NCBI GenBank assembly: GCA_902615855.1
Contig: CACMQN010000009.1
Coordinates: 1 to 53,052 of the forward strand
Source: an uncultured Candidatus Actinomarina sp.
Lineage (GTDB): Bacteria > Actinomycetota > Acidimicrobiia > Actinomarinales > Actinomarinaceae
Direction of reading: 5' to 3'
Length of the DNA stretch: 53,052 nt
The notes beneath the pieces are model-generated. The model was not told where the DNA came from, did no database searches, and worked only from the letters and a program-made list of their open reading frames with translations. Shown piece after piece: positions 19,490 through 48,741 of this stretch. The position numbers and the translations under genes were made by a program. Positions within the stretch are counted from its first letter, which is position 1. The number at the start of each line of letters is the position of its first letter.

Positions 19490-20134
19490 TTACTTTACAG
19501 CTTTCAGAACCGGTCTGTCGAGATAATAGCTTAATATTTGTAATTCTTGAGAAAGGTCAACAGACCTAATTTGAACATCTGGAGTATTTTTTAATAGTAC
19601 TGGTGCAAAATTTAGAATAGATTTTATATTACATTGAATTAGTTGATCTGCTATGTCTTGGGCTACTTTGCCAGGAGTAGCAATGATACCAATTGCAACA
19701 TTGTATTTTTCGCAAACACTTTTCATTTCTGATATTGGTTTTACGACAAGGCCAGCTATTTGTTTATTTATTTTTTTTGGATCGTCATCAAATAGGCCTA
19801 CAACTCCAAACCCTCTATCTTGAAAACCTCCATAATGTGCAAGAGCAGATCCAAGGTTACCAACCCCTATAATAATGGCGCTCCAGCCCTCAACTAGACC
19901 AAGTTCTAATTGAAGTTGATTTCTCAAAGTAGAAATATCGTACCCAACCCCTCTCGTTCCAAGGGTTCCTAAGTATGATAAGTCTCTTCGCACTTGCGCA
20001 TCGTTTACTTTTGCAATTTCAGCAAGTTTTTTTGATGAAATGCCACTAGTCTCATTATCTATTTGTTCTAAACATTGAAGATAAAGAGGAAGCCTCTTAA
20101 CTGTTGCTGGTGGTATATTGCTATTTTCTTTCAC
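19490..20134 (-). CDS. rex: Redox-sensing transcriptional repressor Rex
   Basis: Represses respiratory genes when NAD+ is high and releases DNA when NADH binds. An N-terminal winged helix (IPPATVKRLPLYLQ, then KLAEIAKVNDAQVRRDLSYLG with the recognition helix and FGTRG-like LGTRGVGY) precedes a Rossmann domain with GVGNLGSALAHYGGF and the acidic FDDDP. A GTG at 20134 places the family-typical start just before IPPATVKRL. An in-frame TTG at 20155 would add seven residues. A TAGATT eight bases before the GTG fits a leaderless start. A perfect Rex operator precedes nuoA at 21573, so complex I is the likely target. Confidence 0.93.
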   Translation of the reverse strand: MKENSNIPPATVKRLPLYLQCLEQIDNETSGISSKKLAEIAKVNDAQVRRDLSYLGTLGTRGVGYDISTLRNQLQLELGLVEGWSAIIIGVGNLGSALAHYGGFQDRGFGVVGLFDDDPKKINKQIAGLVVKPISEMKSVCEKYNVAIGIIATPGKVAQDIADQLIQCNIKSILNFAPVLLKNTPDVQIRSVDLSQELQILSYYLDRPVLKAVK

Positions 20135-20246
20135 TAATGCACAATCTAATAACAATATAAAAATAAGCTAAATTACATACAAAATAATTTATATTTACTT
20201 AAATTTATCTTTTGTAAGCAAATAGGGTAATTTAAAGTCATAAGTC

Positions 20247-21536
20247 ATGAAAAAAAACGAAATTTTTGATGTTTTAATTGTAGGAGCAGGCCCGTCTGGG
20301 TCAAATACTGCAATTTCTTTTAAAAATTTAAATCCCGATCTAAAAATTGGGATAATCGACAAAGCTATTTTCCCAAGAGATAAATCGTGTGGTGATGCGA
20401 TTGGGCCAGGGGTAATTAATGCTTTAAAAAGATTTAACAATGAACATATTCTTGATGGTGAACCTGAAGTTATCTCAACATCTTTATTTGGTCCTGATAA
20501 TATTGGAATCCAAAACTATATTCCAAAAGTTAAAAACAAAGATGATTCTGTTGTTTACGTTATCCCAAGATATGAACTCGATAATAGAATTTTTGAAATT
20601 GCAAAAAATCTCAATGTACATTCATATGAGGGTGTTAGGTATATAGATTATGAACAAACTGAAAATGAAGATATTTTAAAAGTAGAGATCGAAAATAGTG
20701 ATAAAGAAAAAAACTTCTTATTCACAAAATTGTTGGTTGGTGCAGATGGTGCAAATTCTAGAGTTAGAAAAAGTTTAGATTTAAAGCAAAATAGTGACAT
20801 ACACAAAGCAATTGCTATAAGAGCCTATATTGACAGTCCAAATTATTTAGAAATATTTAAAGAAAGAACACTTATGTTTGAAATCAATGTTTCAGCATTA
20901 AAAGGTTATGCTTGGGCGTTCCCTAGTAAGGGTAATTTAATAAATATTGGTATTGGTATGCCATTAAATTTATTTAAAAAAGACAAAATGGATATTAATG
21001 AAATGCTTGATAGCTTTATACGTACATTGGAATCCAAAGGAGTAATTGTTGATAACTTAAGGATGGAAAAAAGTTATATGCTTCCATTTGCATCCTCTAG
21101 ACCAAAGCTTGCGCATGATAAAGTAGCTCTTGTCGGAGATGCCGGTTCAATGATCAACCCCATGAGTGGAGAAGGTATTTTTTACGGCATGGAAGCAGGA
21201 TATTTACTTGCAAAAGAAACATTCGGTTCATTAAATTCCAACAAAGAAAATAATTTAAATAATAAATTAAAAAAATATGAAAGAGCCTTAAATAAAAGAT
21301 TTGGAATGCATTTTCTGAGCTGTACGGTTGCTCGACTAGTTTTGCAAAGTCCATTTATGACAAAGAGATTACTTAAAATTGCATCAGTTGATAAAAACAC
21401 TATTAATTTTGTTGTTGAGCTCTTGTTTGATGAGGCAAGATTGACGATTAAAGAGACTTTTTCGCTAGCTTTTAAATTCATTTTACCCTTTAGAACAGTA
21501 AGGTTTTTCACTAAATCTCCAGCCTTTTCCCTATAA
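20247..21536 (+). CDS. Geranylgeranyl reductase family FAD-dependent oxidoreductase
   Basis: Flavoprotein that saturates double bonds of isoprenoid chains. The 429 residues begin with an FAD-binding Rossmann motif VGAGPSGSNTA (about residues 12-22), then DKSCGDAIGPG (about 45-55), the DG motif VGADGANSRVRKSL, and ALVGDAGSMINPMSGEGIFYGMEAG, which is diagnostic of the GGR/PHBH fold. Actinobacterial members include MenJ, which partly saturates the menaquinone side chain. Since the gene lies just ahead of the quinone-reducing complex I genes and beside rex, a quinone role is a reasonable inference. Lipid or carotenoid side-chain reduction is possible too. Confidence 0.85.
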   Translation: MKKNEIFDVLIVGAGPSGSNTAISFKNLNPDLKIGIIDKAIFPRDKSCGDAIGPGVINALKRFNNEHILDGEPEVISTSLFGPDNIGIQNYIPKVKNKDDSVVYVIPRYELDNRIFEIAKNLNVHSYEGVRYIDYEQTENEDILKVEIENSDKEKNFLFTKLLVGADGANSRVRKSLDLKQNSDIHKAIAIRAYIDSPNYLEIFKERTLMFEINVSALKGYAWAFPSKGNLINIGIGMPLNLFKKDKMDINEMLDSFIRTLESKGVIVDNLRMEKSYMLPFASSRPKLAHDKVALVGDAGSMINPMSGEGIFYGMEAGYLLAKETFGSLNSNKENNLNNKLKKYERALNKRFGMHFLSCTVARLVLQSPFMTKRLLKIASVDKNTINFVVELLFDEARLTIKETFSLAFKFILPFRTVRFFTKSPAFSL

Positions 21537-21572
21537 CAAAAAGCAAAATCAGTACTAAAATAAGATGATACA

Positions 21573-21590
21573 TTGTGAAATATTTCACAA
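21573..21590. promoter_or_regulatory. Rex operator upstream of nuoA
   Basis: TTGTGAAATATTTCACAA is an uninterrupted 18-base palindrome identical to the ideal Rex-binding consensus (TTGTGAAnnnnTTCACAA). It ends 13 bases before the GTG of nuoA and three bases before its Shine-Dalgarno GGGAGGG. A TAAGAT at 21561-21566 is a possible -10 box, so bound Rex would sit on the transcription start. Rex is encoded 1.4 kb away. Confidence 0.92.
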
Positions 21591-21603
21591 ATAGGGAGGG
21601 AAT

Positions 21604-22014
21604 GTGATTAATTGGTTACCAATTTTGGTAATGCTTTTTATTGGTATTGGTTTTGCAATTGCTTCACTTGGTGTCAGCTATCTTTTATCACCAAAAAATC
21701 CTACACCTGAAAAATTAACACCTTATGAGTCTGGTATTTTCCCCGAAGAAGAGCCCTCACAGAGATTCCCAGTCAAATTTTATATGGTCGCTATGTTGTA
21801 TATTGTTTTTGATATTGAAATAATATTTCTTTTAGCCTGGGCAACCCGATTTGAGCAACTTGGCTGGTACGGAATAGTTGTTATTTTCATATTCACATTC
21901 TTTGTACTTGAGACACTTTATTATGTCTGGAAAAGAAATGTTCTTGATTGGAATGTTCCAAGAAGGCAAAGATATCATGATCCAGTTTCTAACTATGAAG
22001 GAGCTAATGAATAA
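21604..22014 (+). CDS. nuoA: NADH-quinone oxidoreductase subunit A (complex I, copy 1)
   Basis: Membrane subunit at the junction of the two arms of complex I. The 136 residues have three helices and the family core [16 protein letters not shown] (about residues 29-44) plus [15 protein letters not shown]. The loop position that is Cys in many NuoA/ND3 proteins is Ser43 here, unlike in the second copy. The start is GTG with a strong GGGAGGG four bases upstream. The nearby ATG at 21602 is followed at once by a stop. It is the first of 14 contiguous nuo genes and is directly under the Rex operator. Confidence 0.95.
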
Positions 22015-22475
22015 TGTTTTCTCCTGATAATATTTTCACAACAACTATTGATAAAGCGGTCCGTTGGTCAAGAACGCAATCCATGTGGCCTGTTACTTTT
22101 GGACTTGCATGCTGCGCTATTGAAATGATGGCTGCAGGATCTGCAAAATACGACTTGGCAAGATATGGAATGGAGGTATTCAGGGCATCACCAAGACAGG
22201 CTGATTTGATGATAGTTGCTGGTAGAGTTTCTCAAAAAATGGCACCAGTATTGAGACAAGTTTATGACCAAATGGCAGAGCCAAAATGGGTAATAGCAAT
22301 GGGTGCTTGCTCTTCAACTGGTGGGATGTTTAATAACTATGCTCTTGTACAAGGTGTTGACCACATAGTTCCTGTAGACATATATGTGCCTGGATGTCCA
22401 CCCGGACCCCAATCATTAATGCACGGAATCTTAACACTTCATCAAAAAATTATGGATAGAGAGATAAATAGATAA
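22014..22475 (+). CDS. nuoB: NADH-quinone oxidoreductase subunit B (copy 1)
   Basis: Holds the terminal [4Fe-4S] cluster N2, which passes electrons to the quinone. The 153 residues contain the cluster ligands in [12 protein letters not shown] (about residues 34-45), GACSSTGG (about 98-105) and VPGCPPGPQ (about 127-135). It overlaps nuoA and nuoC by one base each (TAATG), so translation is coupled along the operon. Confidence 0.97.
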
Positions 22476-22882
22476 TGAAAGAAAATCTAGATATATCAAT
22501 TGAAGATTATTTTCAAAAAGTTGAAGAGTTGAAAAATGATGGATATGAAATGATGGTTGATTTAACTGCTATAGATTGGTTTAGAAAAAAAGAACCTAGG
22601 TTTGAAGTAGTTGTAAACTTTCTCTCTGTTTCAAAAAACAAAAGAATTTCTATCAAAGTCAAATTAAATGATGAGTTAACAATTCCTTCAATTACAAGTC
22701 TTTATCCAAGTGCAAACTTTTATGAAAGAGAAGTATTTGATATGTTTGGAATTAATTTTGAAAACCATCCTGATTTAACAAGAATTCTTATGCCTGATGA
22801 TTGGGTTGGACACCCTTTGAGAAAAGACTATGGAACAGGAAGAATACCAGTTCAATTCAAAAATGCACCAAAGGTTGATTAA
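22475..22882 (+). CDS. nuoC: NADH-quinone oxidoreductase subunit C (copy 1)
   Basis: Peripheral-arm scaffold subunit of complex I (30-kDa type). The 135 residues are short for NuoC but include the conserved core LTAIDWF, the [31 protein letters not shown] block (about residues 85-115), and a C-terminal HPLRKDY. It is fused to nothing and is a separate gene from nuoD, to which it is coupled by a one-base overlap. It is clearly shorter than the 186-residue NuoC of the second cluster, mostly at the N-terminus. Confidence 0.93.
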
Positions 22883-24240
22883 TGATGGAAGAAAATAAAG
22901 ATACTGTAAAAGATGTAGACTTCTGGGCTACAAATTCAGAAGAGGGTGGATGGAACATTTCTTCAACTGATGAAGGATCACAAAAAATGTTGGATCAAGA
23001 AGACGAAGTAACTACAAAAATTCAAATGGGTTCAGAAGTTATCGATGACTATTTTATTGATGATGATATTTCTGATGATGAAAGAATGATTTTAAATATG
23101 GGACCTCAGCATCCATCAACACATGGTGTCTTAAGGTTACAAGTAGAACTTGAAGGTGAAGTCGTAAGAAGAGTACAGCCTGTAATTGGGTATCTTCATA
23201 CCGGAATGGAGAAGACGGGAGAAGAGTTAAATTACTTTCAAGGACCTACTAACACTACAAGGATGGATTATCTCTCGCCTTTTTTCAATGAACTTGTTTT
23301 TTCATTAGCGACTGAAAAACTATTAGATATTGAAGTCCCTGATAGAGCATCAACAATAAGAATATTAATGACAGAACTAAATCGAATCTCCTCACACCTT
23401 GTGGCACTAGCAACTGGTGGAATGGATATTGGAGCATTATCAATGATGATTTTTGGGTTTAGAGAAAGAGAATTAATTCTTGATTTTTTCGAAAAGACAA
23501 CAGGTCTTAGAATGAATCACAACTTTATAAGACCAGGTGGTGTCGCAGCAGATTTACCAGATAATTGGCAAAAAGATATTGAAAAGATATTGAAAGTTAT
23601 ACCTGAAAAACTAAAAGACTATGATGAAATGCTTTTAGACAATCCTATTTGGCAAGGAAGACTTAAGAATGTTGGAATATTAACGACTGAAGAATGTTTG
23701 GCATACGGCATAACTGGTCCAAGTCTTAGAGCTAGCGGATATGCATGGGATTTAAGAAAAATGCAACCTTATTCAGGTATAGAAAAATATGAGTTTGATA
23801 TTCCGGTTTTTGAAGAAGGTGATGTCTTTGCAAGGTGGAGAATCAAAGTTTTAGAAATTTTTGAAAGTTTAAAGATTGTTGAACAAGCTATGGGAAATAT
23901 GCCTAAAGGCCCATTCAAAATTCAAGATAAAAAAATAACCCCTCCGCCAAGAAAAAGACTTGATGAGTCAATGGAAGCTTTGATCCACCATTTTAAAATA
24001 TACACAGAAGGCTTTAAAGTTCCAGAAGGAGAAGTATATACAACAGTTGAATCTCCTAGAGGAGAGTTGGGCTGTTTTATTGTTTCAGACGGATCATCAA
24101 AACCTTATAGAATGCACGTAAGAGGACCTTCCTTCTGTAATCTTCAAGCTTTACCAGTAGTAATGTCAGACAGTCCAATTGCAGACGCAGTTGCAGCAAT
24201 AGCCTCTTTAGATCCAGTTTTAGGAGATGTTGACAGATGA
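22882..24240 (+). CDS. nuoD: NADH-quinone oxidoreductase subunit D (copy 1)
   Basis: 49-kDa subunit that forms the quinone pocket with NuoB. The family core begins at NMGPQHPSTHGVLRL (about residue 72) and runs to the C-terminal LDPVLGDVDR. The quinone-site histidine and tyrosine regions (GPQHPSTHG and YLHTGMEK) are intact. The 452 residues include an N-terminal extension of about 67 residues before the core, with roughly 22 Asp/Glu, which copy 2 lacks. Two tandem ATGs (22882, 22885) mark the start. It overlaps nuoE by four bases. Confidence 0.96.
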   Translation: MMEENKDTVKDVDFWATNSEEGGWNISSTDEGSQKMLDQEDEVTTKIQMGSEVIDDYFIDDDISDDERMILNMGPQHPSTHGVLRLQVELEGEVVRRVQPVIGYLHTGMEKTGEELNYFQGPTNTTRMDYLSPFFNELVFSLATEKLLDIEVPDRASTIRILMTELNRISSHLVALATGGMDIGALSMMIFGFRERELILDFFEKTTGLRMNHNFIRPGGVAADLPDNWQKDIEKILKVIPEKLKDYDEMLLDNPIWQGRLKNVGILTTEECLAYGITGPSLRASGYAWDLRKMQPYSGIEKYEFDIPVFEEGDVFARWRIKVLEIFESLKIVEQAMGNMPKGPFKIQDKKITPPPRKRLDESMEALIHHFKIYTEGFKVPEGEVYTTVESPRGELGCFIVSDGSSKPYRMHVRGPSFCNLQALPVVMSDSPIADAVAAIASLDPVLGDVDR

Positions 24241-24851
24241 GTTGGGAAAAAGCATTGATTGATAAAGCAAAAGAAATTATTGATATGTACCCTCAAAAAA
24301 GATCTGCATTAGGGCCACTTTTATATCTAGCACAAGAAAAAGACGGCTATATATCAAATGATTCAATTGTAGAGATTAGTAATCTTATTGGCATTACTGA
24401 AGTTCAAGTAAAGTCAGTTGCATCCTTTTACTCTATGTACAAAGAAGAGCAAACTGGAAAGTATTTATTAAGTGTATGTAAGTCAATCTCTTGCGAAATA
24501 AATGACTCAAGAAGCGTGATAGATTCTGTCAAAAACTTTACAGGCTTAGAAAATTATGAAACAGATACTGAGAAGGTTTTTACTTTTGAGGAAGTTGAGT
24601 GCATTGGTGCTTGCGGAGGAGCACCAGCTGTTCAAGTTAATTACGAAACAGTTGAAGGATTGACACCTGAAAAGTCACTCCAAATGTGTGAATGGCTCAA
24701 AGAAGAACGACCAGAAATAATTGTAGCTGAAGAACTTCAAGAGAAATTTGGAGGTGTAAAGTCATTTGACTGGGCAATTAAAGACAATACAGGTTCATCT
24801 TATTCTGTTCCGGGATTTCAAAATATCGGTACTGCTAAGGAAAAAAGCTAA
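24237..24851 (+). CDS. nuoE: NADH-quinone oxidoreductase subunit E
   Basis: Thioredoxin-like subunit of the NADH-input module carrying [2Fe-2S] cluster N1a. The four cysteine ligands are in SVCKSISCE (CxxxxC, about residues 79-87) and ECIGACGGAP (CxxxC, about 120-129). The N-terminal helical bundle starts with MYPQKRSALGPLLYLAQE. The 204 residues include a C-terminal tail of about 40 residues beyond the usual core. It overlaps nuoD by four bases and nuoF by one. There is only one nuoE in the window, since the second cluster lacks it. Confidence 0.95.
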   Translation: MSWEKALIDKAKEIIDMYPQKRSALGPLLYLAQEKDGYISNDSIVEISNLIGITEVQVKSVASFYSMYKEEQTGKYLLSVCKSISCEINDSRSVIDSVKNFTGLENYETDTEKVFTFEEVECIGACGGAPAVQVNYETVEGLTPEKSLQMCEWLKEERPEIIVAEELQEKFGGVKSFDWAIKDNTGSSYSVPGFQNIGTAKEKS

Positions 24852-26146
24852 TGAAAGAAACTTTATTACTTACAAAGCATATGCGTGAATTTCCTGAAGA
24901 TAGCCATCAGATTGAAATTTATGAGAAAAATAATGGTTATAGTGCACTCAAAAAAGTTTTAAAAGAAGACAATCCCGAGAATGTTATTAATGAGATTAAG
25001 GATTCAAACATAAGGGGTCGTGGAGGAGCAGGCTTTCCAACAGGAGTAAAGTGGGGTTTTTTAGCAGAAAATGAGGACAGGTATCTTGTAATTAATGGTG
25101 ATGAATCCGAACCCGGTACATTCAAAGATAGAATTTTACTTGAGAGAGATCCACACCAACTAATTGAAGGTGTAATAATTACATGCTTTGCTTCAAACAT
25201 CAAAAAAGCATTTATCTACATAAGAGGTGAGTATGCGAAGCCAGCAAGAAGAGTGCAGGATGCAGTTGAGCAAGCATATGAAAAAGGATATTTGGGAAAT
25301 AATATATTAGGAACAAATTTTTCCTTGGATGTAGTAGTTCATCTTGGAGCAGGAGCGTATATATGTGGTGAAGAAACAGCTCTTTTGAATTCACTTGAAG
25401 GAAAAAGAGGAGAGCCAAGACTTAAACCACCTTATTTTCCCGCAGTAATGGGACTATACAACAAACCAACACTAGTAAATAATGTAGAAACAATATCTTC
25501 AGTTCCTTGGATAATTCAAAATTCGGGGAAAGAGTATTCAAAACTTGGTGTTGAAGGATCAACTGGAACTAGAATTTTTAGCTTGTCAGGCCACGTAAAT
25601 AATCCTGGAAATTTTGAAATTGAAATGGGTCAAAGCTTTGGTGAATTTATAGATACATTTGGAAAAGGAATCAAAAATAACAAAAATGTCAAAGCTTATA
25701 TTCCCGGAGGTGCTTCTGCGCCATGGTTCACCGGTGATCAGTTAGATATAAAAATGACAATTGATGATGTTGCAAATGCAGGATCTATGTTGGGTTCTGG
25801 TGCGGTAGTTGTGATGGATGAAGATACTAATTTAGTTTATGCTGCTAAGAGTATCGTAAGTTTTTTTGCTCATGAATCATGTGGTCAATGTACTCCCTGC
25901 AGAGAAGGGACAACTTGGCTAGAGATGATTTTAGAAAGAATTGCGAGCGGCAGAGGTAGACTTTCTGATATTAGTTTGTTGATTGATATTTGCGACAATA
26001 TTTCACCTGGATTAGATTGGCCACCAAAAATGACAACAATATGTCCACTTGGTCCTTCAGCTGTATCTCCAATAACATCATTGCTAAATAACTTTTCTGA
26101 GGAGATAACAAATATGCTTCCAACAAAAATTCCAATTACACAATGA
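24851..26146 (+). CDS. nuoF: NADH-quinone oxidoreductase subunit F (NADH/FMN-binding)
   Basis: Oxidises NADH, holds FMN and [4Fe-4S] cluster N3, and feeds electrons into complex I. The 431 residues show the FMN/NADH site GRGGAGFPTGVKWGF (about residues 54-68), NGDESEPGTFKDR, AGAYICGEETALLNSLEG, and the cluster motif SCGQCTPCREGTTWL near the C-terminus. It overlaps nuoG by four bases. Its presence marks this cluster as the NADH-using complex and agrees with control by the NADH sensor Rex. Confidence 0.97.
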   Translation: MKETLLLTKHMREFPEDSHQIEIYEKNNGYSALKKVLKEDNPENVINEIKDSNIRGRGGAGFPTGVKWGFLAENEDRYLVINGDESEPGTFKDRILLERDPHQLIEGVIITCFASNIKKAFIYIRGEYAKPARRVQDAVEQAYEKGYLGNNILGTNFSLDVVVHLGAGAYICGEETALLNSLEGKRGEPRLKPPYFPAVMGLYNKPTLVNNVETISSVPWIIQNSGKEYSKLGVEGSTGTRIFSLSGHVNNPGNFEIEMGQSFGEFIDTFGKGIKNNKNVKAYIPGGASAPWFTGDQLDIKMTIDDVANAGSMLGSGAVVVMDEDTNLVYAAKSIVSFFAHESCGQCTPCREGTTWLEMILERIASGRGRLSDISLLIDICDNISPGLDWPPKMTTICPLGPSAVSPITSLLNNFSEEITNMLPTKIPITQ

Positions 26147-28479
26147 CGGATCAAATAAAGATAAATGTTAATGGTTCTGAAATAAGTTCAAAACCCGACC
26201 AGCTAATAATTGAAGCTTGTGAAGATTCTGGTATTCACATACCAAGGTTCTGCTGGCATAAACGTATGGATCCTGTTGGGATGTGTCGTATGTGCTTGGT
26301 TGAGGTTGAAACTCCAAGAGGTAAAGCTCTTGTTCCATCATGTACAACCAAAGTTTCAGAAGATTTAGTCGTAGACACTGAATCTGATGTTGTAAAAAAA
26401 GCTCAAGAAGGAGTTTTAGAGTTTTTATTGATTAATCATCCTTTAGACTGCCCGGTTTGTGATAAAGCTGGAGAATGTCCTTTACAAGATCAAACAATGG
26501 CATATGGTCCAGGAGAATCTAGATTTGTAGAAGACAAAAGACATTTTGAAAAACCTATTCCAATTTCAGAAATAATTTTACTTGATAGGGAGAGGTGTAT
26601 TTTATGTGCTCGTTGTACTCGATTTTCTGATGAAATATCTGGAGATCCACTTATTGAATTTATACAAAGAGGAAATAAGACCCAAGTAAATACATTTCCT
26701 GACGAGCCGTTTAGATCATACTTCTCAGGCAATACAGTACAAATTTGTCCAGTTGGCGCTTTAACATCATCTTCCTACAGATTCAAAGCTCGTCCTTGGG
26801 ATTTAAAGAAAGTTTCATCAACCTCTAATTGTTCTTCAGTAGGTGACTCGGTTGAATTAAATGTCTCACAGAACAAGATGCTTAGGATTTTAGGTGAGGA
26901 CAATGAATTTACAAATCAAGGATGGCTTTCTGACAAAGGGCGATACAACTTTGAATATTTACATTCGGATAAGAGAATCGAAACACCAATACTTGTTAAA
27001 AATTCAAACAAGGAATTAACCATTAACGAAACTATGGAGTTAATTAGTAATGAAATACTTACAAGCGAAAATCCTAACATAAGCTTTATAGTTGGACACA
27101 ACTCTACTAATGAAGAATATTATGCATTAAATAAATTTGTAGAAAATCTTAATAAAGTTGAAAATGAAAACACAGTTAGCACTACAAATTTTTATCTGAG
27201 TGATGATTATTTATACAATGGTTTTTTCAATGATGATTACTCACTTGGAGAAATTAAAGATTTAGATTCTGCTGACACCATAATTTTGTGGGCACAAGAT
27301 ATAAAAGACAATCTTCCAACTCTTTATCTAAGAATTAAACAGGCTGTCAAAAATGGAAAAAAATTATTAATATTTGGCCACACAAATACTGCAATTAAAG
27401 AACTTTCGGAAGAATATTATGGTGAAAATATTGTCACAAATAATTTTGAATTCAATGTCGATTTATCAGATATACCAAATTTATCCAAGTATATTGATGG
27501 AAAAGATGTTTTAGCTATTATAGGAAAAGCCTCTCCACTTCAAAATGTAAATCCAATTTTCCAATTGGTTAAACATTTAGATCAAAATTCCAATTTAAAA
27601 ATACTAAATTGTTTTTCAAAAGGCAACACACTTGGAGCATTACAAAATTTAGATATTGTGAAAGGTCTAAATGAGTTTGTAACAGAATTTGATAGTAGTA
27701 AAAAAAATATTGTATTCACAGTAGGCTCCAACCCCGTAAATAATTCAATTTATAGCCATAAAATAAAGGAAGCATTAATTGATTCGGATTTTGTAGTTTC
27801 TCTTGATTTGTTTAAAAATGAAACAACCGAACTATCAGATATTATTCTTCCGACAACAACATTTGGTGAAAAGGAAGGTACATTCACAAATCTTGAAATG
27901 AGAACGCTAATGCAAAATAAAATATTACCTACTCCGGGATCTGCATTAAATGAATGGGAATATTGGTTGATTCTATCGAATAAAATGAATTTATTAGAAT
28001 CTTATGGAACTGAAGCAGAGTTAAACTCCATGTTGTGTAAAGACTACATTGATAATGGTAACATTCCATCTTTTGATAATTTGAATAAACCATCTAATCT
28101 TGATGGAATTTTAAACTCAAAGACAATCAATATTGAAGTAAAAAATATTGATTCGACAAATCTTGAAATATTATTTGTTCATAGACTTTATGGAGATTCT
28201 TCATCACAAATCAATTCTCCCTCAATTTCTATGCTAGGTTCTGAAAGATTCATTGAAATGAATTCAGCAACTTACTTTGGATCCTATATGCTTCATAGCG
28301 ACGTAGTAACTTTAATACAGGAAAATAACTCGATTCAAGTTAACGTCAATATTAATGAAAATCTTCCTGATAACCTTTTAGTAATTCCAATAAACAGAAG
28401 GGGATTCCAAGATCTTAATCCTGAGAAAAAAGTGGAATTAGAGGCAGCAAAAAGTAGGGAGCAATTAAGTGTCACCTGA
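26143..28479 (+). CDS. nuoG: NADH-quinone oxidoreductase subunit G
   Basis: Largest peripheral subunit, carrying Fe-S clusters N1b, N4 and N5. The 778 residues start with a ferredoxin-like domain (CWHKRMDPVGMCRMCLVEVE, with a further Cys near 66), then the HxxxC-type N5 motif in NHPLDCPVCDKAGECPLQD (about 108-126) and the N4 motif CILCARCTRFSDE. The remaining 500 residues are a molybdopterin-oxidoreductase-like domain without cofactor ligands. The Cys set for the extra N7 cluster seen in some bacteria is not present; only one Cys occurs in the matching region. It overlaps nuoF by four bases and nuoH by eleven. Confidence 0.94.
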   Translation: MTDQIKINVNGSEISSKPDQLIIEACEDSGIHIPRFCWHKRMDPVGMCRMCLVEVETPRGKALVPSCTTKVSEDLVVDTESDVVKKAQEGVLEFLLINHPLDCPVCDKAGECPLQDQTMAYGPGESRFVEDKRHFEKPIPISEIILLDRERCILCARCTRFSDEISGDPLIEFIQRGNKTQVNTFPDEPFRSYFSGNTVQICPVGALTSSSYRFKARPWDLKKVSSTSNCSSVGDSVELNVSQNKMLRILGEDNEFTNQGWLSDKGRYNFEYLHSDKRIETPILVKNSNKELTINETMELISNEILTSENPNISFIVGHNSTNEEYYALNKFVENLNKVENENTVSTTNFYLSDDYLYNGFFNDDYSLGEIKDLDSADTIILWAQDIKDNLPTLYLRIKQAVKNGKKLLIFGHTNTAIKELSEEYYGENIVTNNFEFNVDLSDIPNLSKYIDGKDVLAIIGKASPLQNVNPIFQLVKHLDQNSNLKILNCFSKGNTLGALQNLDIVKGLNEFVTEFDSSKKNIVFTVGSNPVNNSIYSHKIKEALIDSDFVVSLDLFKNETTELSDIILPTTTFGEKEGTFTNLEMRTLMQNKILPTPGSALNEWEYWLILSNKMNLLESYGTEAELNSMLCKDYIDNGNIPSFDNLNKPSNLDGILNSKTINIEVKNIDSTNLEILFVHRLYGDSSSQINSPSISMLGSERFIEMNSATYFGSYMLHSDVVTLIQENNSIQVNVNINENLPDNLLVIPINRRGFQDLNPEKKVELEAAKSREQLSVT

Positions 28480-29566
28480 AATTATTCTTGCATTAATTAA
28501 ACCACTTCTAGTTTTAGGACTTTTACTAACCAATACAATTATTCTTATTTGGTTAGAAAGAAAAGTTGTTGCGGGGATGCAATCAAGAGTTGGTCCTGAT
28601 AGAGCTGGTCCATTTGGAATATTACAAACTTTGGCAGATGCGATAAAACTTTTGTTAAAAGAGCAAATCTTACCAATGAAAGCTGATAAAGCAATGTATC
28701 TATTAGCTCCTATTATTGCGTTGGTTCCATCTTTTTTAATATTTATGATAATTCCATTGGGACCAGGTTTTGAGCTAACAATTGGTCAGGAATCTCAATT
28801 TATTAATATGGTGGGAGCAGATATTAATGTCGGCGTTTTATTTTTTCTTGCAGTTAGTTCATTGGCAGTTTACAGCGTAGTTTTAGCAGGATGGTCTTCC
28901 GGATCAAAATATCCGTTGCTAGGTGGTGTAAGAGCTTCTGCCCAAATGATTTCATATGAAGCTGCGATGGGTCTTTCATTAGTACCAGTTATTTTGTATT
29001 CAGGATCTATGTCAATGTCGAAAATTGTTGAGAGTCAATCAGGATATTTATCTAGCCCCATTCCCATAGTTGATTCAATAATTGGATTCATTCCGAACTG
29101 GAACATTTTTCCACAATTTTTAGCTTTTGGAATATTTTTCATAGCCTCGATTGCTGAAGTAAACCGAGCTCCTTTTGATCTTGTAGAAGCAGAGCAAGAA
29201 TTAGTTGGTGGGTTTCATACAGAATATTCAGGTTTCAGATTTGCAATGTTTTTTTTAGCTGAATATATAAATATGTTTAATATGTGTGCAATAACAGCAA
29301 CTTTCTTCTTGGGCGGATGGTTAGGGCCAACTTTCGCTGGAGTTTTACCACCGTTTCTATCAGCAATAATGCCAACAATATGGTTGGGTGTTAAAACTTT
29401 CGGTCTATTATTTGTTTACTTCTGGATTAGAGCAACACTCCCAAGACTAAGATATGACCAACTAATGGAGTTAGGATGGAAGAGACTTATACCCCTATCA
29501 ATAATATGGCTAATGATTTCATCAATTGTGCTTGGTATTAGAGAGTTTGGGCTACCTTGGAGTTAG
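28469..29566 (+). CDS. nuoH: NADH-quinone oxidoreductase subunit H (copy 1)
   Basis: Eight-helix membrane subunit that closes the quinone chamber. The 365 residues contain WLERKVVAGMQSRVGPDRAGPFG (about residues 28-50), the cytosolic loop AEVNRAPFDLVEAEQELVGGFHTEYSG (about 228-254), and LPRLRYDQLMELGWK at the C-terminus. The acidic residues of the connecting channel lie in these loops. The start is GTG, inside the end of nuoG. NuoI follows after seven bases. Confidence 0.95.
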   Translation: MSPEIILALIKPLLVLGLLLTNTIILIWLERKVVAGMQSRVGPDRAGPFGILQTLADAIKLLLKEQILPMKADKAMYLLAPIIALVPSFLIFMIIPLGPGFELTIGQESQFINMVGADINVGVLFFLAVSSLAVYSVVLAGWSSGSKYPLLGGVRASAQMISYEAAMGLSLVPVILYSGSMSMSKIVESQSGYLSSPIPIVDSIIGFIPNWNIFPQFLAFGIFFIASIAEVNRAPFDLVEAEQELVGGFHTEYSGFRFAMFFLAEYINMFNMCAITATFFLGGWLGPTFAGVLPPFLSAIMPTIWLGVKTFGLLFVYFWIRATLPRLRYDQLMELGWKRLIPLSIIWLMISSIVLGIREFGLPWS

Positions 29567-29573
29567 GAAAATT

Positions 29574-30188
29574 ATGAGTGCAGGTTATGACTTAGTTAAA
29601 GGATTGAAGGTAACTTTTAAAGAGCTATTCAAAAAATCTGTAACAGACAAATATCCTAAAGAGTTTAGAAACAAACCACAAAGATTTCATGGAAGGCATG
29701 TTTTAAATAAATATGAAGATGGAATGGAAAAATGTATAGGGTGTGAACTATGTGCTGGAGTATGTCCTGCCCAGTGTATTTACGTTAGGGGTGAAGATAA
29801 TCCTGAAGAACAACCAGTAAGCCCAGGTGAGAGATACGGTTTTATCTATGAAATAAATATGCTTAGATGTATTTATTGTGGTTTGTGCGTTGAAGCATGT
29901 CCTACTGAAGCTATAACTATGACATCTTTATTTGAGATGAGTGTTGGTTCTAGAGATGAAGCAGTATTTGATAAAGAGGTTTTATTGGTAGGAGATGATG
30001 GAAATCCAAATGTTCATGAGGAGCAAACAAAATTAACAAATTTTAATGAATTAAAAACAGCTGATGGATGGATGAGAGCAACATCATCGAATGGTAATCC
30101 GGACTATCAAAATATTATAAGCTGGACAGGGTCCCTTGGAGTTGGAAAAAGAGATCCTGAAAAGGGTCAATTTTTAGAAGAAGAATAG
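29574..30188 (+). CDS. nuoI: NADH-quinone oxidoreductase subunit I (copy 1)
   Basis: Carries the two [4Fe-4S] clusters N6a and N6b on the way to NuoB. Two ferredoxin motifs are visible: CIGCELCAGVCPAQC (about residues 54-68) and CIYCGLCVEACPTEA (about 99-113). The start at ATG 29574 is chosen because AGGA sits five bases upstream. The open frame continues back into nuoH without a better start. The 204 residues include a C-terminal tail of about 60 residues after the second cluster, longer than in copy 2. Confidence 0.95.
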   Translation: MSAGYDLVKGLKVTFKELFKKSVTDKYPKEFRNKPQRFHGRHVLNKYEDGMEKCIGCELCAGVCPAQCIYVRGEDNPEEQPVSPGERYGFIYEINMLRCIYCGLCVEACPTEAITMTSLFEMSVGSRDEAVFDKEVLLVGDDGNPNVHEEQTKLTNFNELKTADGWMRATSSNGNPDYQNIISWTGSLGVGKRDPEKGQFLEEE

Positions 30189-30189
30189 T

Positions 30190-30717
30190 GTGACAGATTT
30201 ACTGCTATTTGCGATTCCTGGACTGTTTATAATTCTAGGAGCGCTTATAGTAATTTTTGCCAAAAATCCAGTTCACAATGCAATGGGACTAGTCCTAACA
30301 CTTACATCGCTAGCTATTTTATATATCTCTCTTAATGCAACTTTCGTTGCTATGGTTCAAATGTTAGTTTATGCAGGCGCTGTAATGACATTATTTTTGT
30401 TTGTCATAATGATGATTGGTGTTGACAAACCAGAACAAACCAAAGAGGAAATAAAAGGTCAAAAATTACTAATATCTGGAACTTTAATTTTATTAGTTTC
30501 GGTTGTTGTCTTTATTGGTTTAGAAAATGGATTAAATTGGAATTTGCTATTTCCTCAATCTCAAGATACGTTTGAAGGCACACCGTCACTTTTAGCATCT
30601 GCAATGTTTACATCATGGGTCTTTCCCTTTGAGGTCATATCAATACTTCTGATCGTAGCGACTACCGCAGCATTAGCTTTAGCTTATGAGTTTAGGAAAA
30701 GAGAGACCAATGATTGA
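30190..30717 (+). CDS. nuoJ: NADH-quinone oxidoreductase subunit J (copy 1)
   Basis: Membrane subunit with five helices, 175 residues. The conserved third helix is [22 protein letters not shown] (about residues 55-76), which contains the pi-bulge region in other species, followed by a long loop and the final helix ending [10 protein letters not shown]. The start is GTG one base after the nuoI stop. The end overlaps nuoK by eight bases. Confidence 0.94.
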
Positions 30718-31018
30718 AGTAACTACTGATTGGTATCTAACTCTGTCAGCCATACTTTTTTCAATTGGCTTCCTCGGTATGATGATTCGTAAAAATGCAT
30801 TGATTATGTTTATGTGTATTGAGCTTATGCTTAACGCTGTTAATTTAACATTTATTACTGCTTCGAATCATTTGGGATTAGTTGATGGACAAATTGCAGT
30901 CTTTTTTGTACTAGTTGTTGCTGCCGCAGAAGTTGTAGTTGGTCTAGCAATAATTGTCTCAATATTTAAAAAACAAGAATCAGCGTCTGTTGATATGTTA
31001 AGTTCTTCGAAGGGATAA
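30710..31018 (+). CDS. nuoK: NADH-quinone oxidoreductase subunit K (copy 1)
   Basis: Three-helix antiporter-like subunit of the membrane arm. From ATG 30710 ([20 protein letters not shown]) it encodes 102 residues, the normal NuoK length. The conserved glutamates lie in [14 protein letters not shown] and in [11 protein letters not shown]. The open frame extends back into nuoJ, but the internal ATG at 30686 would give a non-family N-terminus. TAGGAAAAG lies upstream as a ribosome-binding sequence. Confidence 0.94.
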
Positions 31019-31020
31019 CT

Positions 31021-32910
31021 TTGGAAATTTTAATTTTAGGAGTATTACTGATTCCGTTTCTTACATCGTTGCTTTTAAAAGTTGCTGGAAAATACATGAA
31101 TGAGTTACTTACAAATTTTGTAACTTTGAATGCCTCCCTTTTGTCTGTTGCAATATCTTTTTTCTTATTTGGATATATTTTTTTGGATAAATTCAAACCA
31201 CTTAAGTTCGAGCTCTTTGAGTGGTTTCCTGATCCACAAATAGTATTTGAATTTTATTTAGATGGACTATCTGGAGTAATGATGGTTTTAATTTGTACTT
31301 TAAGTCTTGTAATTCAACTTTTTTCGACCTCATATATGAGCAAAGATGAAAAATACACAAAATACTTTGAATATTTTAATTTTTTTGTTTTTTCAATGTT
31401 ACTGCTTGTGTTGTCTGGAAATTTTTTGGTAATGTTTTTTGGATGGGAACTTGTTGGATTAAGCTCTTATCTCTTAATATCTTTTTGGTCAGAAAAGAAA
31501 GCAGCATCAAAAGCAGGAAACAAAGCTTTTATTTTAAATAGGATAGGAGACTTCGGATTTCTTATTGGTCTCATGATGATTTTAAATTATTTTGAAACCT
31601 TTAACTTTTTGAGTATATTTGAAAACACTCTAAAAACACGACCTGAAAATTTAGATCTCATGATTTTGTTTTTACTTTTAGGTGCTTTTGGAAAATCTGC
31701 TCAGTTTCCTTTATTTAGTTGGTTACCAGATGCAATGGAAGGACCAACACCTGCAAGTGCATTGATTCATGCTGCAACAATGGTTACTGCTGGTGTGTTT
31801 ATGTTGGTTAGAATTTCACCACTTTTGCAATTTTCAGAAATAGGAAGTATCACAATTATTAGTCTTGGACTTTTAACAGCTCTAATTTCTGCTTTCGCTG
31901 CGATAAATCAAGAGGACATAAAAAAAGTTTTAGCTTACTCAACTATTTCACAACTTGGATTTATGTTCATAGCTATTGGAGCAGGAGCTTATGTTGCAGC
32001 AATATTTCATCTCGTAACACATGCGTTTTTTAAAGCATTGCTATTTCTCGGAGCAGGGGCTGTAATTCATGAAATGCATCACGAACAAAATATTTATAAA
32101 ATGGGCGGTCTTAGAAAAAAAATGCCAGTAACTGCTGCAATGATGGGAATTGGAACTTTAGCAATATCTGGTATTCCACCGTTGGCAGGATTTTGGTCAA
32201 AGGATGAAATACTAGCCTCGGTATTTTCAAGAGGAGGAATTTATTATGGCTTTTGGGCTTTGTCTCTTTTAGCTGCATTAATGACTGCTTTTTACATGGG
32301 GAGGCACTGGTTATTAATTTTTGTTAAAGAGCCATCCAATGAATTAGACAGTGTAAATGAAGCACCAAAAAATATGACAAGGCCTTTGATTCTACTTGGC
32401 CTTTTTTCTATTTTTATTGGATTTATAAACACACCTTTTTTTCATGGTTTAGAAAAAGTATTACACGAAACTCTTTATGACGTAGAAGTTACGCACCTTC
32501 CAAAAGGTATAACTCTCGCTGTCTTGGCATTTCTATCAATTGGTGCAGGTTTTACAGGCCTTGCACTTGCATACTTGATTTATATCTTTGATATTTTTGG
32601 CTATTTTAAAATAAAAATTCCTTTTTTAAAACAAATCAAAAAGCTTTCAAAAGATGTTCTTAATTTAAATAAAATAGGAAATCTAATTTTTGTAAAAGGT
32701 ATGAAATCATTATCGAGAAAAGTCGCTGTAAGTGTTGATGGTATGACTATTGATGGATTTATAAATGGAGTAGCAAGGTCATTTTTAAAATCATCCCAAC
32801 AAATTTCCTATTCACAAACTGGTCTTGTTAGAAGCTATGTTGTATATTTTGGACTTTTCATGTTGGTACTAATTCTTGTATTTTTATTTTCACCTGGAGT
32901 CTTATTATGA
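31021..32910 (+). CDS. nuoL: NADH-quinone oxidoreductase subunit L
   Basis: Distal proton-pumping subunit of the Mrp-antiporter type. The 629 residues have about 15-16 helices plus the long lateral helix near the C-terminus. Key proton-path motifs are GWELVGLSSYLLI (about residues 141-153), SQFPLFSWLPDAMEGPTPASALIHAATMV and HLVTHAFFKALLFLGAGAVIHEMHHEQN. The start is TTG two bases after the nuoK stop. It overlaps nuoM by four bases. Confidence 0.96.
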   Translation: MEILILGVLLIPFLTSLLLKVAGKYMNELLTNFVTLNASLLSVAISFFLFGYIFLDKFKPLKFELFEWFPDPQIVFEFYLDGLSGVMMVLICTLSLVIQLFSTSYMSKDEKYTKYFEYFNFFVFSMLLLVLSGNFLVMFFGWELVGLSSYLLISFWSEKKAASKAGNKAFILNRIGDFGFLIGLMMILNYFETFNFLSIFENTLKTRPENLDLMILFLLLGAFGKSAQFPLFSWLPDAMEGPTPASALIHAATMVTAGVFMLVRISPLLQFSEIGSITIISLGLLTALISAFAAINQEDIKKVLAYSTISQLGFMFIAIGAGAYVAAIFHLVTHAFFKALLFLGAGAVIHEMHHEQNIYKMGGLRKKMPVTAAMMGIGTLAISGIPPLAGFWSKDEILASVFSRGGIYYGFWALSLLAALMTAFYMGRHWLLIFVKEPSNELDSVNEAPKNMTRPLILLGLFSIFIGFINTPFFHGLEKVLHETLYDVEVTHLPKGITLAVLAFLSIGAGFTGLALAYLIYIFDIFGYFKIKIPFLKQIKKLSKDVLNLNKIGNLIFVKGMKSLSRKVAVSVDGMTIDGFINGVARSFLKSSQQISYSQTGLVRSYVVYFGLFMLVLILVFLFSPGVLL

Positions 32911-34397
32911 CAGGTTTGATTTATAGCTTTATATTGCTTCCAGTAATTAACTCAATATTAGTTTTTCTTATTCCAAACAGAAGGAAAGAACTCTTCAGAC
33001 CTTTAACAGTTTATTTAAGCTTGATCCCATTAGGTCTCTGTTTGTATATGTTTGTAAACCAAAATTTAAAAACAAGCTTTTTAGAAGTTGATTCAATACC
33101 TTGGATTACAGCATATGGAATAGATTTGATTGTTGGATTTTCTGGAATGTCATTTTTATTAATTACATTAAATTGTTTGCTTGTATTATTGTCAATTCTT
33201 TCAGTAAATCAAGAATATGCAGAAAGTAAAGGATTTCTTGGGTCAATCATGCTCTTACAAGCTTCTGTAAATGGAGTATTCTTGGCAGGTGACTTAGTTT
33301 CACTATTCATATTTTTTGAAGCCTTGCTAATTCCAATGTATTTCTTAATGGGAATCTGGGGTGGAAGTAATAGAAGATATGCAACAATTAAATTTATTTT
33401 ATATACAGTCTTTGGTTCAATTTTTATACTCGCTGGAACAATATATACAGGAGTTTTAAGCTACATTTCATCTGGAAAATTTGCGTTAGATTTTGAATCA
33501 ATAGCATCTATGTCAATTACAACCAGCCAGTCAGAAATATTATTTTTACTATTCACATTTGGTTTCCTTGTAAAAGTGCCTTTATTTCCACTTCACACCT
33601 GGTTACCAGATGCTCACGTGGAAGCACCAACCGCGGGAAGTATTTTGTTGGCTGGAGTTCTTTTAAAAGTTGGAGCCTATGGAATATTAAGAGTATCAAT
33701 TCCTTTTTTTACAGAAGGATTTCTTAGGTACCAATTCATAATTGCATTTCTATCTGTTGTAGGGATAATTTATGGTGCAATCGTAGCAATTGTTCAAATA
33801 GACATTAAAAAACTAATTGCATATTCTTCAATAAGCCACATGGGATTTGTAATGCTTGGTATTTCAGCAGGAAGATACTTAAGTCTTGAAGGTGCTGTAA
33901 TTCAAATGATAAATCACGGCATAACTTCTGGTGCATTATTTATGCTTGTTGGATTTATATATGACCGAAGACACACAAGGAGAATATCAGATTTTGGGGG
34001 TTTGAGAAAATCAATGCCAATATATGCATCGATATTCTTATTTACCTCATTTGCTTCGATAGGACTACCGGGACTTAATGGATTTGTTGGTGAGTTTATG
34101 ATTTTAATGGGAAGTTATCCGACTTTCAAAGTTCTTACCTCTGTTGCAGCATTTGGTGTTGTCCTTGCAGCAATTTATATGCTTTGGGCTTATCAAAGGA
34201 TGTTTAATGGACAATTAGATAATGATGAAAATGCTGTGTTAACAGATTTAAATTCAAAAGAACTGGTAGCAGTAGGTCCATTGCTTGTTTTAATGTTGTT
34301 CATTGGCATATATCCAAGTTTTATAGAAAGCTATGTTGTTCAAGATGTATCAGCTATCTATGAATCAATTAGTAATCTCATAGGAGTTTCACAATGA
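32907..34397 (+). CDS. nuoM: NADH-quinone oxidoreductase subunit M
   Basis: Middle antiporter-like, proton-pumping subunit, 496 residues with about 14 helices. Diagnostic stretches are DLVSLFIFFEALLIPMYFLMGIWGG (about residues 129-153), VPLFPLHTWLPDAHVEAPTAGSILLAGVLLKVGAYG, and SSISHMGFVMLGI, followed by MINHGITSGALFMLVG. The key Glu and Lys residues of the antiporter fold are retained. It overlaps nuoL by four bases and nuoN by four. Confidence 0.96.
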   Translation: MTGLIYSFILLPVINSILVFLIPNRRKELFRPLTVYLSLIPLGLCLYMFVNQNLKTSFLEVDSIPWITAYGIDLIVGFSGMSFLLITLNCLLVLLSILSVNQEYAESKGFLGSIMLLQASVNGVFLAGDLVSLFIFFEALLIPMYFLMGIWGGSNRRYATIKFILYTVFGSIFILAGTIYTGVLSYISSGKFALDFESIASMSITTSQSEILFLLFTFGFLVKVPLFPLHTWLPDAHVEAPTAGSILLAGVLLKVGAYGILRVSIPFFTEGFLRYQFIIAFLSVVGIIYGAIVAIVQIDIKKLIAYSSISHMGFVMLGISAGRYLSLEGAVIQMINHGITSGALFMLVGFIYDRRHTRRISDFGGLRKSMPIYASIFLFTSFASIGLPGLNGFVGEFMILMGSYPTFKVLTSVAAFGVVLAAIYMLWAYQRMFNGQLDNDENAVLTDLNSKELVAVGPLLVLMLFIGIYPSFIESYVVQDVSAIYESISNLIGVSQ

Positions 34398-35866
34398 GTG
34401 AAATTAGCGCAGCAATAGGTTTCAATTTAATAGTGATTTCTCCAACCATAGCTTTAGTTGGTACAGCTTTGGTTCTTCTATTTTTTACAATCACGATTGA
34501 ATCTAATGAAACTGTAAAAAAATCAATTACATTGATAGGAATACTTATTACTTCTTTTTGTGTATTTTTAAAATTTGGATTGTTTTTCCAGAATGGAATT
34601 AGTTCGTACTTTACTCAAAAAATATTATTAGATGAATTTTCTCTTTTTGGAAATGTTTTAATTTCGCTTATTTTATTATTTAATTTTTTACCAATTTGGG
34701 ATTCATCAAAACAATTAAAAGAAAAAACAACTGAGGCGATAATTTTAACTCTGATGAGTGCTTCTGGCTTCATGTTAATGGTTGACTCTGAAAATTTAAT
34801 AATGTTATTTATTGGTTTGGAGATTGGTTCTATCAGTTTGTATGCTCTCGCTGGTTTAAATAGAGGTGATAAGCTTAGTAATGAGGCTTCCCTAAAGTAT
34901 TTTCTATTAGGATCACTCGCATCTTGTATTTTAATTTATGGTGTCTCGTTAGTATTTGTATCTTTTTCAGTTTTTAGTGTATACAACTTCGCCCTAGGTA
35001 TCGCGTATGTTGGACCTGATTCTGTACCACTTACAACGTCAATAGGTGTTTTACTTATTTTTATTGGTTTACTATTTAAAATTGCTGCTGCGCCTTTTCA
35101 ATCCTGGGCTCCTGATGTTTATCAAGGTTCACCAACGGGATATGTTGGATTTATGTCTTCAATAGCTAAAGTTTCATCATTTATTGTTATTGCAAGACTT
35201 TGTTTGGTGTCAATAAACATTATTATTGAAGATTTCAATATCTTCTTTTTAATAGTTATTATTTCTTCTGCTCTCATTGGTTCTTTATTTGCATCTATAC
35301 AAGAAGATCTAAAGAGGCTTTTAGCTTATAGTGGTGTAGTCCAGTCTGGATTTATTTTATCTGGAATTGTATCAGGTATAAATGGAACAAGTGCATCTAT
35401 GTTTTATCTATTTACTTACATACTCCAATTAATTGGAATATTTATAATTTTTTCAATTATAAATGGAAAACTATCATCAGAATTTAACATTCAAAGTATT
35501 CAGGGATTATTTATAAATAATCGGTTTCTTGCAGCTTCATTTTGTATATTTATGTTTGGTTTAGCAGGAATTCCTTTAACAAGCGGATTCGTCTCAAAAT
35601 TTATTTTGTTAACAAACTTATGGGCTTATGAAAAATATCTCCTTGTCTCCATTCTTTTATTGTCAACAGTTGCAGGATTTTATTTTTATTTGAGACCAAT
35701 TTGGATAGCAACGATTGAAAAGACAGAAACACCAATAGAGACATTAAAATTAAAAAAATCAGAATATTTTGTAATTACAACTTTAGCGACACTAACTATA
35801 TTTTTTGGCCTTGTTCCTAGCTCATTGATAAATATTTCAAGATGGATAGTACAGAGTTATCTATGA
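34394..35866 (+). CDS. nuoN: NADH-quinone oxidoreductase subunit N
   Basis: Proximal antiporter-like subunit, 490 residues with about 14 helices. The family core includes NLIMLFIGLEIGSISLYALAGLNRG (about residues 135-159), APFQSWAPDVYQGSPTGYVGFMSS, and EDLKRLLAYSGVVQSGFILSGI. It is the last of the 14 canonical genes. Its stop codon lies inside the start of a further small ORF (ATGA overlap at 35863-35866), so the operon may continue. Confidence 0.95.
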   Translation: MSEISAAIGFNLIVISPTIALVGTALVLLFFTITIESNETVKKSITLIGILITSFCVFLKFGLFFQNGISSYFTQKILLDEFSLFGNVLISLILLFNFLPIWDSSKQLKEKTTEAIILTLMSASGFMLMVDSENLIMLFIGLEIGSISLYALAGLNRGDKLSNEASLKYFLLGSLASCILIYGVSLVFVSFSVFSVYNFALGIAYVGPDSVPLTTSIGVLLIFIGLLFKIAAAPFQSWAPDVYQGSPTGYVGFMSSIAKVSSFIVIARLCLVSINIIIEDFNIFFLIVIISSALIGSLFASIQEDLKRLLAYSGVVQSGFILSGIVSGINGTSASMFYLFTYILQLIGIFIIFSIINGKLSSEFNIQSIQGLFINNRFLAASFCIFMFGLAGIPLTSGFVSKFILLTNLWAYEKYLLVSILLLSTVAGFYFYLRPIWIATIEKTETPIETLKLKKSEYFVITTLATLTIFFGLVPSSLINISRWIVQSYL

Positions 35867-46276: not shown

Positions 46277-46332
46277 TTTTGGTAGATGTTTGTAAATTCC
46301 ATATTAATATATGAGTGTCAAAGGGGGGAAAT

Positions 46333-47139
46333 TTGATATCTGAAAAAATCCGAAAATTAAGGCGTTTTAATATCATTATGGGCTTTATGCACCTTGTACA
46401 AGGATCAGCATTATTTTGGTTAGGAACTGTAGTAAATTCCGATTTTGTAGTCCCAATAACTCTTACACAATTGGTCGGAGAGGGCAGTCCAAATGATCCA
46501 TCATCATTTGCTTTAGTACCAAAACTAGAAATATGGAGAGAAGTAACAAACTTTGGACCTGCTGTTGCAACATTCTTGTTAGCATCTGCAGTTGCACATT
46601 TTTTGATATCGGGTCCATTTTACGAAAAATACCAAGAAGACCTTGGAAAAGGAATCAATAAAGTTCGTTGGATTGAATACTCCATAAGTGCTTCTGTCAT
46701 GATAGTTTTAATTGCCTTACTAGTTGGAATTTATGATATCTGGGCATTACTTGGTATATTTTTTATGAATGCTGCAATGTGTTGGTTCGGGTGGATGATG
46801 GAAGTCAACAATCAATATACTGAAAAAGTCGATTGGACAAGTTACATTATGGGTTGTCTTGTAGGTGTTGCACCATGGATTTTCATATTTATTAATTTAA
46901 TTGGGGATGGTGTTGCAACAGATTCAAACCCACAAGGTGTACCTCAGTTTGTTGTCTGGATTTTTGTAAGTATATTTTTATTCTTTAACACTTTTTCAAT
47001 AAACATGGTTCTTCAATATAAAGGTGTAGGCAAATGGAAAGATTATCTTTACGGTGAGAGGGCATATATATGGCTTAGCTTATTAGCAAAGACTGCTCTT
47101 GCCTGGCAAGTCTTCTTTGGGACTTACCAACCAAACTAA
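46333..47139 (+). CDS. Heliorhodopsin
   Basis: Seven-helix retinal protein of the heliorhodopsin family, which has an inverted orientation relative to type-1 rhodopsins and a slow photocycle consistent with signalling. The 268 residues carry the retinal lysine in LLAKTALAWQVF (Lys253), the counterion glutamate in RWIEYSISASVMIVLIA (Glu115), and histidines at His20 (FMHLVQG) and His89 (VAHFLISG) that match the conserved pair of the reference protein 48C12. The conserved QYKGVGKWKDYLYGERAYI precedes helix 7. TTG 46333 is chosen because AAGGGGGG lies four bases upstream; GTG 46315 would add six residues. No retinal-forming dioxygenase is in the window. Confidence 0.95.
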   Translation: MISEKIRKLRRFNIIMGFMHLVQGSALFWLGTVVNSDFVVPITLTQLVGEGSPNDPSSFALVPKLEIWREVTNFGPAVATFLLASAVAHFLISGPFYEKYQEDLGKGINKVRWIEYSISASVMIVLIALLVGIYDIWALLGIFFMNAAMCWFGWMMEVNNQYTEKVDWTSYIMGCLVGVAPWIFIFINLIGDGVATDSNPQGVPQFVVWIFVSIFLFFNTFSINMVLQYKGVGKWKDYLYGERAYIWLSLLAKTALAWQVFFGTYQPN

Positions 47140-48375: not shown

Positions 48376-48741
48376 ATGATTTCTTATTTTCAGGATTACG
48401 TTACTGTTGGGGCAATGATAGGTCTCGGACTTGTCTTGTTTCTAGTGTTTATTTCTGTATCTGCATTACTTAGTCCCAAAAAACCAACTCCAGAAAAAGT
48501 TAAAACATATGAGTGCGGAGTAGATCCAGTAGGTGGTGGATGGAGCCAAACTTATGTTAGATACTATATATTTGGTTTATTATTTGTAATTTTTGATGTT
48601 GAGGCAGTATTTATTTTTCCATGGGCACTTAATCTAGAAAATCTTGGATACTTTGGCTTGGTTGAAATGTTTATCTTTATTTTTATTCTCTTACTTGGTT
48701 TGATATATGCCATTAGAAAGGATGTCCTCAAATGGGAGTAA
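48376..48741 (+). CDS. nuoA: NADH-quinone oxidoreductase-like subunit A (copy 2)
   Basis: Three-helix junction subunit of the second complex I-like enzyme, 121 residues. The core [19 protein letters not shown] (about residues 33-51) retains Cys47, the position of the redox-sensitive loop cysteine of mitochondrial ND3, whereas copy 1 has Ser. [22 protein letters not shown] is the conserved third segment. It leads a cluster with the order A, B, C, D, H, I, J, K and probably starts as a leaderless message. It overlaps nuoB by ten bases. Confidence 0.95.

Follow-up and report, generated by a model that had tools for sequence, protein, structure and literature searches.

A probable Rex operator before nuoA and its candidate regulon in Candidatus Actinomarina

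A perfect 18-base palindrome stands directly before the first gene of a complex I (nuo) operon in an uncultured Candidatus Actinomarina sp., and it is very probably the operator of the neighbouring Rex, through which nuo would be repressed at low NADH and relieved by NADH, a negative feedback. Rex control of nuo is already known in S. avermitilis; the nuoA operator adds another case, and would show that an established redox feedback also reaches a marine, highly streamlined actinobacterium. Candidatus Actinomarina is the best named match of the NuoB encoded in this stretch (97%). The analysis covered the whole stretch of 53,052 nucleotides (the window), the source genome assembly (1.065 Mb, 82.8% complete), 42 genomes of the genus and 79 named loci outside it, mostly from actinobacteria, two of them titled as Anaerolineae relatives. 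The features of the window are listed below.

19490..20155, minus strand: rex, NADH/NAD+-sensing repressor (NCBIfam equivalog; PF06971 and PF02629)
20247..21536, plus strand: geranylgeranyl-reductase-family gene (GGR), between rex and nuoA (TIGR02032 over cut-off)
21556..21561, plus strand: TAAAAT, likely -10 hexamer for nuoA (TANAAT in 36/36 rows, 10-11 nt ahead of the operator)
21573..21590, no strand: predicted Rex operator (ROP), perfect palindrome TTGTGAAATATTTCACAA (from sequence; arms exact in 30/30 genus loci)
21594..21600, plus strand: likely ribosome-binding site GGGAGGG of nuoA (read from sequence)
21604..22014, plus strand: nuoA, first gene of the predicted Rex-regulated nuo operon (PF00507, 1.8e-31)
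21604..35866, plus strand: nuo cluster 1, nuoA to nuoN (head-to-tail packed ORFs; nuoA, B, L, M and N named by search)
48376..48741, plus strand: nuoA2, at the head of nuo cluster 2, control without Rex site (PF00507)

The site before nuoA and the neighbouring Rex

The initial annotation had described a complete palindrome equal to the ideal Rex site, and both points were confirmed: TTGTGAAATATTTCACAA is its own reverse complement over 18 bases and fits the published Rex consensus TTGTGAANNNNTTCACAA with 0 mismatches. Rex had also been placed 1.4 kb away, which agrees with the 1421 nt measured from the rex start to the site. The Rex ORF scored 274 bits against the NCBIfam Rex equivalog model NF003992 (cut-off 226), and its N-terminal DNA-binding domain (PF06971) and Rossmann-type nucleotide-binding domain (PF02629) both exceeded their cut-offs. 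Among the 12 DNA-contact residues given for T. maritima Rex in the available part of PMC8836258, nine are identical in the aligned Actinomarina Rex, and the base-reading Lys49 is replaced by Arg.

The operator is intergenic, in the 67 nt between the end of the GGR gene and the start of nuoA, and ends 13 nt before the GTG start codon at 21604. The proposed position between a candidate -10 box and the ribosome site was likewise borne out, with TAAAAT ending 11 nt upstream and GGGAGGG downstream. The hexamer is conserved as TANAAT, 11 nt from the operator in 32 and 10 nt in 4 of the 36 nuoA rows, two of which (L042 and L040) represent one genome; no clear -35 element was seen upstream of TAAAAT.

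No second match to the operator was found in the window at up to three mismatches, and the exact 18-mer is single-copy in the 1.065-Mb genome. The consensus TTGTGAANNNNTTCACAA occurs there in three exact copies, against about 0.014 expected from base composition, and its reversed pattern has no exact match. Many copies in non-promoter positions had been named at the outset as evidence against the reading; all three copies are intergenic, each ending 13 nt before an ORF, namely nuoA, a gene of the WhiB family (L002) and, ahead of copZ and copA, a 64-aa ORF (L005). The second of the one-mismatch sites, C7:5767, lies inside an ABC-transporter-like ORF. Twelve sites carry two mismatches. Of the 11 examined together, nine are within ORFs 120 aa or longer; the twelfth, C9:51228, falls in the ORF 50969-51949. 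These two-mismatch sites, mostly in ORFs, were rejected as operators and treated as chance matches, because the reversed pattern gives a similar number of matches at up to two mismatches (13 versus 17 for the true pattern).

Conservation and alternative explanations

The 14 arm bases before nuoA are exact in 30/30 genus loci, with a variable centre, and five further genomes carry exact arms before nuoA (L177, L193, L203, L206 and L153, the last having an N in its centre). Within 150 bp upstream of other genes of the genus, no site at up to two mismatches was found before nuoA2 (0/20 loci; best 3-6 mismatches), rex (0/30) or GGR (0/30), where shuffling predicted 0.02-0.07 sites per set. In the source genome there is no match before 48376 at up to three mismatches, so that the claimed absence from the second nuo cluster holds for this genome and for its relatives. 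This cluster occupies 48376-52952, cut by the window's end, and has been proposed to use F420 in the consulted portion of PMC7771536; the sensor site thus stands only at the NADH-type cluster. A heliorhodopsin gene, already described for this group in PMC7771536, lies at 46315-47139 between the two nuo clusters.

Across the 42 genus genomes, 117 exact sites were detected, at least one in every genome, and the reversed pattern gave no exact match. Leaving out the nuoA places already analysed, 54 further exact-site loci among the sites listed were distributed before whiB (20), the 64-aa ORF (23), nuoA (5), rhodopsin (4, three of them with two sites) and a lipoprotein-like ORF (2); none of these 54 fell outside the five gene contexts. 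Rex was found in 38 of the 42 genomes. A full nuoA1 match was present in 31, and in 30 of these rex lies no more than 1.5 kb away on the same contig; the exception is G002, whose nuoA sits 1.5 kb from the end of its contig. The four genomes in which Rex was not found (G002, G015, G017 and G028) carry exact sites; as no nuoA1 was detected either in three of the four, these absences are probably assembly gaps, and loss of rex may be the alternative.

Binding by a CRP/FNR/GlxR-type regulator responding to cAMP or another signal, which would recognise TGTGA-N6-TCACA in place of Rex, is very unlikely. The site word fits the CRP/GlxR consensus, and HTH_Crp_2 matches were obtained in 33 of the 42 genus genomes (15 over cut-off), but the one in the window belongs to a DtxR-type iron repressor, and the cNMP-binding domain PF00027 was found in none of the 42 genomes, all of them incomplete, with a control matching in 10/14. 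The inner AA/TT and outer TT/AA flanking TGTGA are also invariant, like the Rex consensus. A CRP/GlxR binder was rejected on the missing PF00027 and the DtxR-type match.

It is just as improbable that the inverted repeat works at the mRNA level by forming a hairpin upstream of the ribosome-binding site. The 5' region can form a 7-bp stem, and the distance from the operator is near constant in the genus loci (13-16 nt to nuoA, 13 nt to whiB); against this, the region folds no better than its shuffles (z 0.05), the arm letters are fixed before unrelated genes and no compensating changes were seen. A functional RNA hairpin is therefore not supported. Chance or neutral similarity, for which one could cite the 33% G+C DNA that favours such words and the 12 two-mismatch matches, about the yield of the reversed pattern, has a practically negligible probability and is excluded by the conservation, the arms being kept in all 30 genus loci before nuoA, and the three exact copies, each 13 nt before an ORF, exceed the expected number by far. 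Operator function for Rex remains the reading with which the sequence-testable points agree, that is, the Rex neighbour, the consensus, the conservation, the absence at nuoA2, the -10-like hexamer and the lack of a CRP-family protein among the 42 genus genomes.

Outside the genus, 37 of the 79 loci carry a site (up to two mismatches): in 18 it lies upstream of nuoA, at most 300 bp away, and in 19 it precedes a GGR gene that runs on into nuo; the other 42 loci have no such site at this threshold. Control windows outside the genus, mostly coding, gave 0/1014. On this count of predicted sites, the link between the Rex site and nuo is older than the genus.

Candidate regulon members and rhodopsin sites

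The Rex of Ca. Actinomarina probably also controls the menA-like gene, whiB and the 64-aa ORF before copZ-copA, as judged from their upstream sites. Neither these further members nor the rhodopsin sites of relatives had been noticed in the initial annotation. The MenA-like prenyltransferase is fused to a PNPOx-like domain and scores below the curated MenA cut-offs; in 30/30 genus loci its gene is preceded, at -36 to -38, by a site with a single mismatch that mostly reads TTGTGCATTATTTCACAA. The same TTGTGCA arm occurs in the S. avermitilis rex operator given in the excerpted text of PMC5355995. In the source genome, this one-mismatch site (L003:1501-1518; G000:C2:125411) lies between the MenA-like gene and a divergent ABC exporter. 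Among solved structures, WhiB1 was the best match of the WhiB protein, and wblE, a whiB-family gene of S. avermitilis, is a proven Rex target according to the same text (PMC5355995). The 64-aa ORF (L005:1532-1726), directly behind its exact site, has a Cys/His pattern and is strongly conserved in the genus, with no Pfam or NCBIfam match over cut-off. An exact site also occurs about 100 bp before the lipoprotein-like ORF (L173:752-769 in G025; L183:777-794 in G002), for which no Pfam match was obtained.

A type-1 rhodopsin was found in 33 of the 42 genus genomes, of which 31 had an upstream region and two were truncated at the end of a contig. In the 150 bp upstream, 4/31 carried an exact site, 14/31 a site at up to one mismatch and 21/31 at up to two, against shuffle expectations of 0, 0.01 and 0.14, counts drawn from related genomes that are not independent; L226, counted among the 21, belongs to the window's clade and matches by a half-site. 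In the rhodopsin tree, the two-site genomes form one well-supported clade and the genomes with a 3-base centre another. The former carry two perfect sites 41 bp apart (L160:803-861 in G013, L167 in G060 and L171 in G014) between divergent rhodopsin and photolyase-like genes, the latter with a weak Pfam match. In the available text of PMC7771536, the gene beside these rhodopsins is called a photolyase, the rhodopsins are called proton pumps and a second location is noted. Rhodopsin and the menA-like gene lie on different contigs in all three two-site genomes, and in 25 of the 28 remaining rhodopsin genomes the menA-like gene is within 10 kb of rhodopsin. One perfect or one-mismatch operator precedes rhodopsin in G022, G002, G025 and G061, and near-operators with one or two mismatches were found in 13 more genomes; G001 has no site.

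In the window's clade, all 10 rhodopsin loci carry a repeat with a shorter, 3-base centre, TGTGAA-CGT-TTCACA, one base short. Each of the 10 clade genomes has the pattern TGTGAANNNTTCACA once, always 26-28 nt upstream of rhodopsin, and it is absent from the other 32 of the 42 genus genomes; its reversed pattern has three occurrences in the 42. The source genome has TGTGAACGTTTCACA at G000:C2:121255-121269 (L347), 27 nt before its rhodopsin. Binding of Rex at this 3-base-centre repeat is doubtful. Outside the genus, where 28 rhodopsin genomes were found and 19 upstream stretches taken, one stretch carried a two-mismatch site (L305) and none the 3-base-centre form, so far as these sequences go a negative result for a Rex-rhodopsin link beyond the genus.

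From the distribution of the sites, we slightly favour the view that complex I, menaquinone synthesis and the light-driven proton pump of Ca. Actinomarina are all linked by Rex to NADH/NAD+, in which case one repressor would balance respiratory and light-driven proton pumping. Repression of the pump at low NADH has no obvious energy logic, and this counts against the simplest reading of the rhodopsin sites. In titles and the starts of abstracts of the records listed, with most subscription journals outside the coverage, no Rex-rhodopsin link was found, and two co-occurrences of 'Rex' with rhodopsin were rejected as a resin name or an author name. A Rex site before a proton-pump rhodopsin gene would be new, and if the rhodopsin sites are real, the control of a marine proton-pump rhodopsin could be tested with one purified protein.

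Predicted control and comparison with known Rex systems

Judging from the position of TANAAT, transcription would start a few bases upstream of the operator. When NADH/NAD+ is low, a dimer of Rex would sit on the operator, just downstream of this likely start. In this position it would stop nuo transcription at initiation or in early elongation, as at cydA1 of S. avermitilis, where the excerpted text of PMC5355995 gives Rex protection from -3 to +25. As NADH accumulates, it would bind Rex, Rex would leave the operator and complex I would be made, lowering NADH again as negative feedback. We infer Rex binding, the response to NADH, the start point and the direction of control from sequence; NADH-triggered release from DNA is known for the Rex family (PMC5355995 and PMC8836258, in the parts available).

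The closest described system is the Rex regulon of S. avermitilis, with which the consensus TTGTGAANNNNTTCACAA is shared and in which, by the excerpted text of PMC5355995, sites before nuoA1-N1 and wblE were established by gel shift, ChIP and footprint. The same text lists atp, cyd, rex-hem, hppA, ndh2 and others as members of that regulon, whereas in Actinomarina no site precedes rex, and the menA-like gene, the copZ-copA-linked ORF and the rhodopsin of relatives appear instead. The operators also differ in position, lying between -35 and -10 of nuoA1 in S. avermitilis and after the likely -10 in Actinomarina. The S. aureus Rex site TTGTGAAW4TTCACAA, as given in the consulted part of PMC2883068, is fitted letter for letter by the Actinomarina nuoA site; the targets listed there are anaerobically induced genes, in contrast to the aerobic energy metabolism genes of the predicted Actinomarina regulon. 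The complex of T. maritima Rex with NAD+ and operator DNA (7WB3; available part of PMC8836258) represents the same protein family, sharing the nine contact residues mentioned above, but its operator is less symmetric than the nuoA site, and Glu34, Lys43 and Lys49 of the T. maritima protein correspond to Lys, Asn and Arg in Actinomarina Rex.
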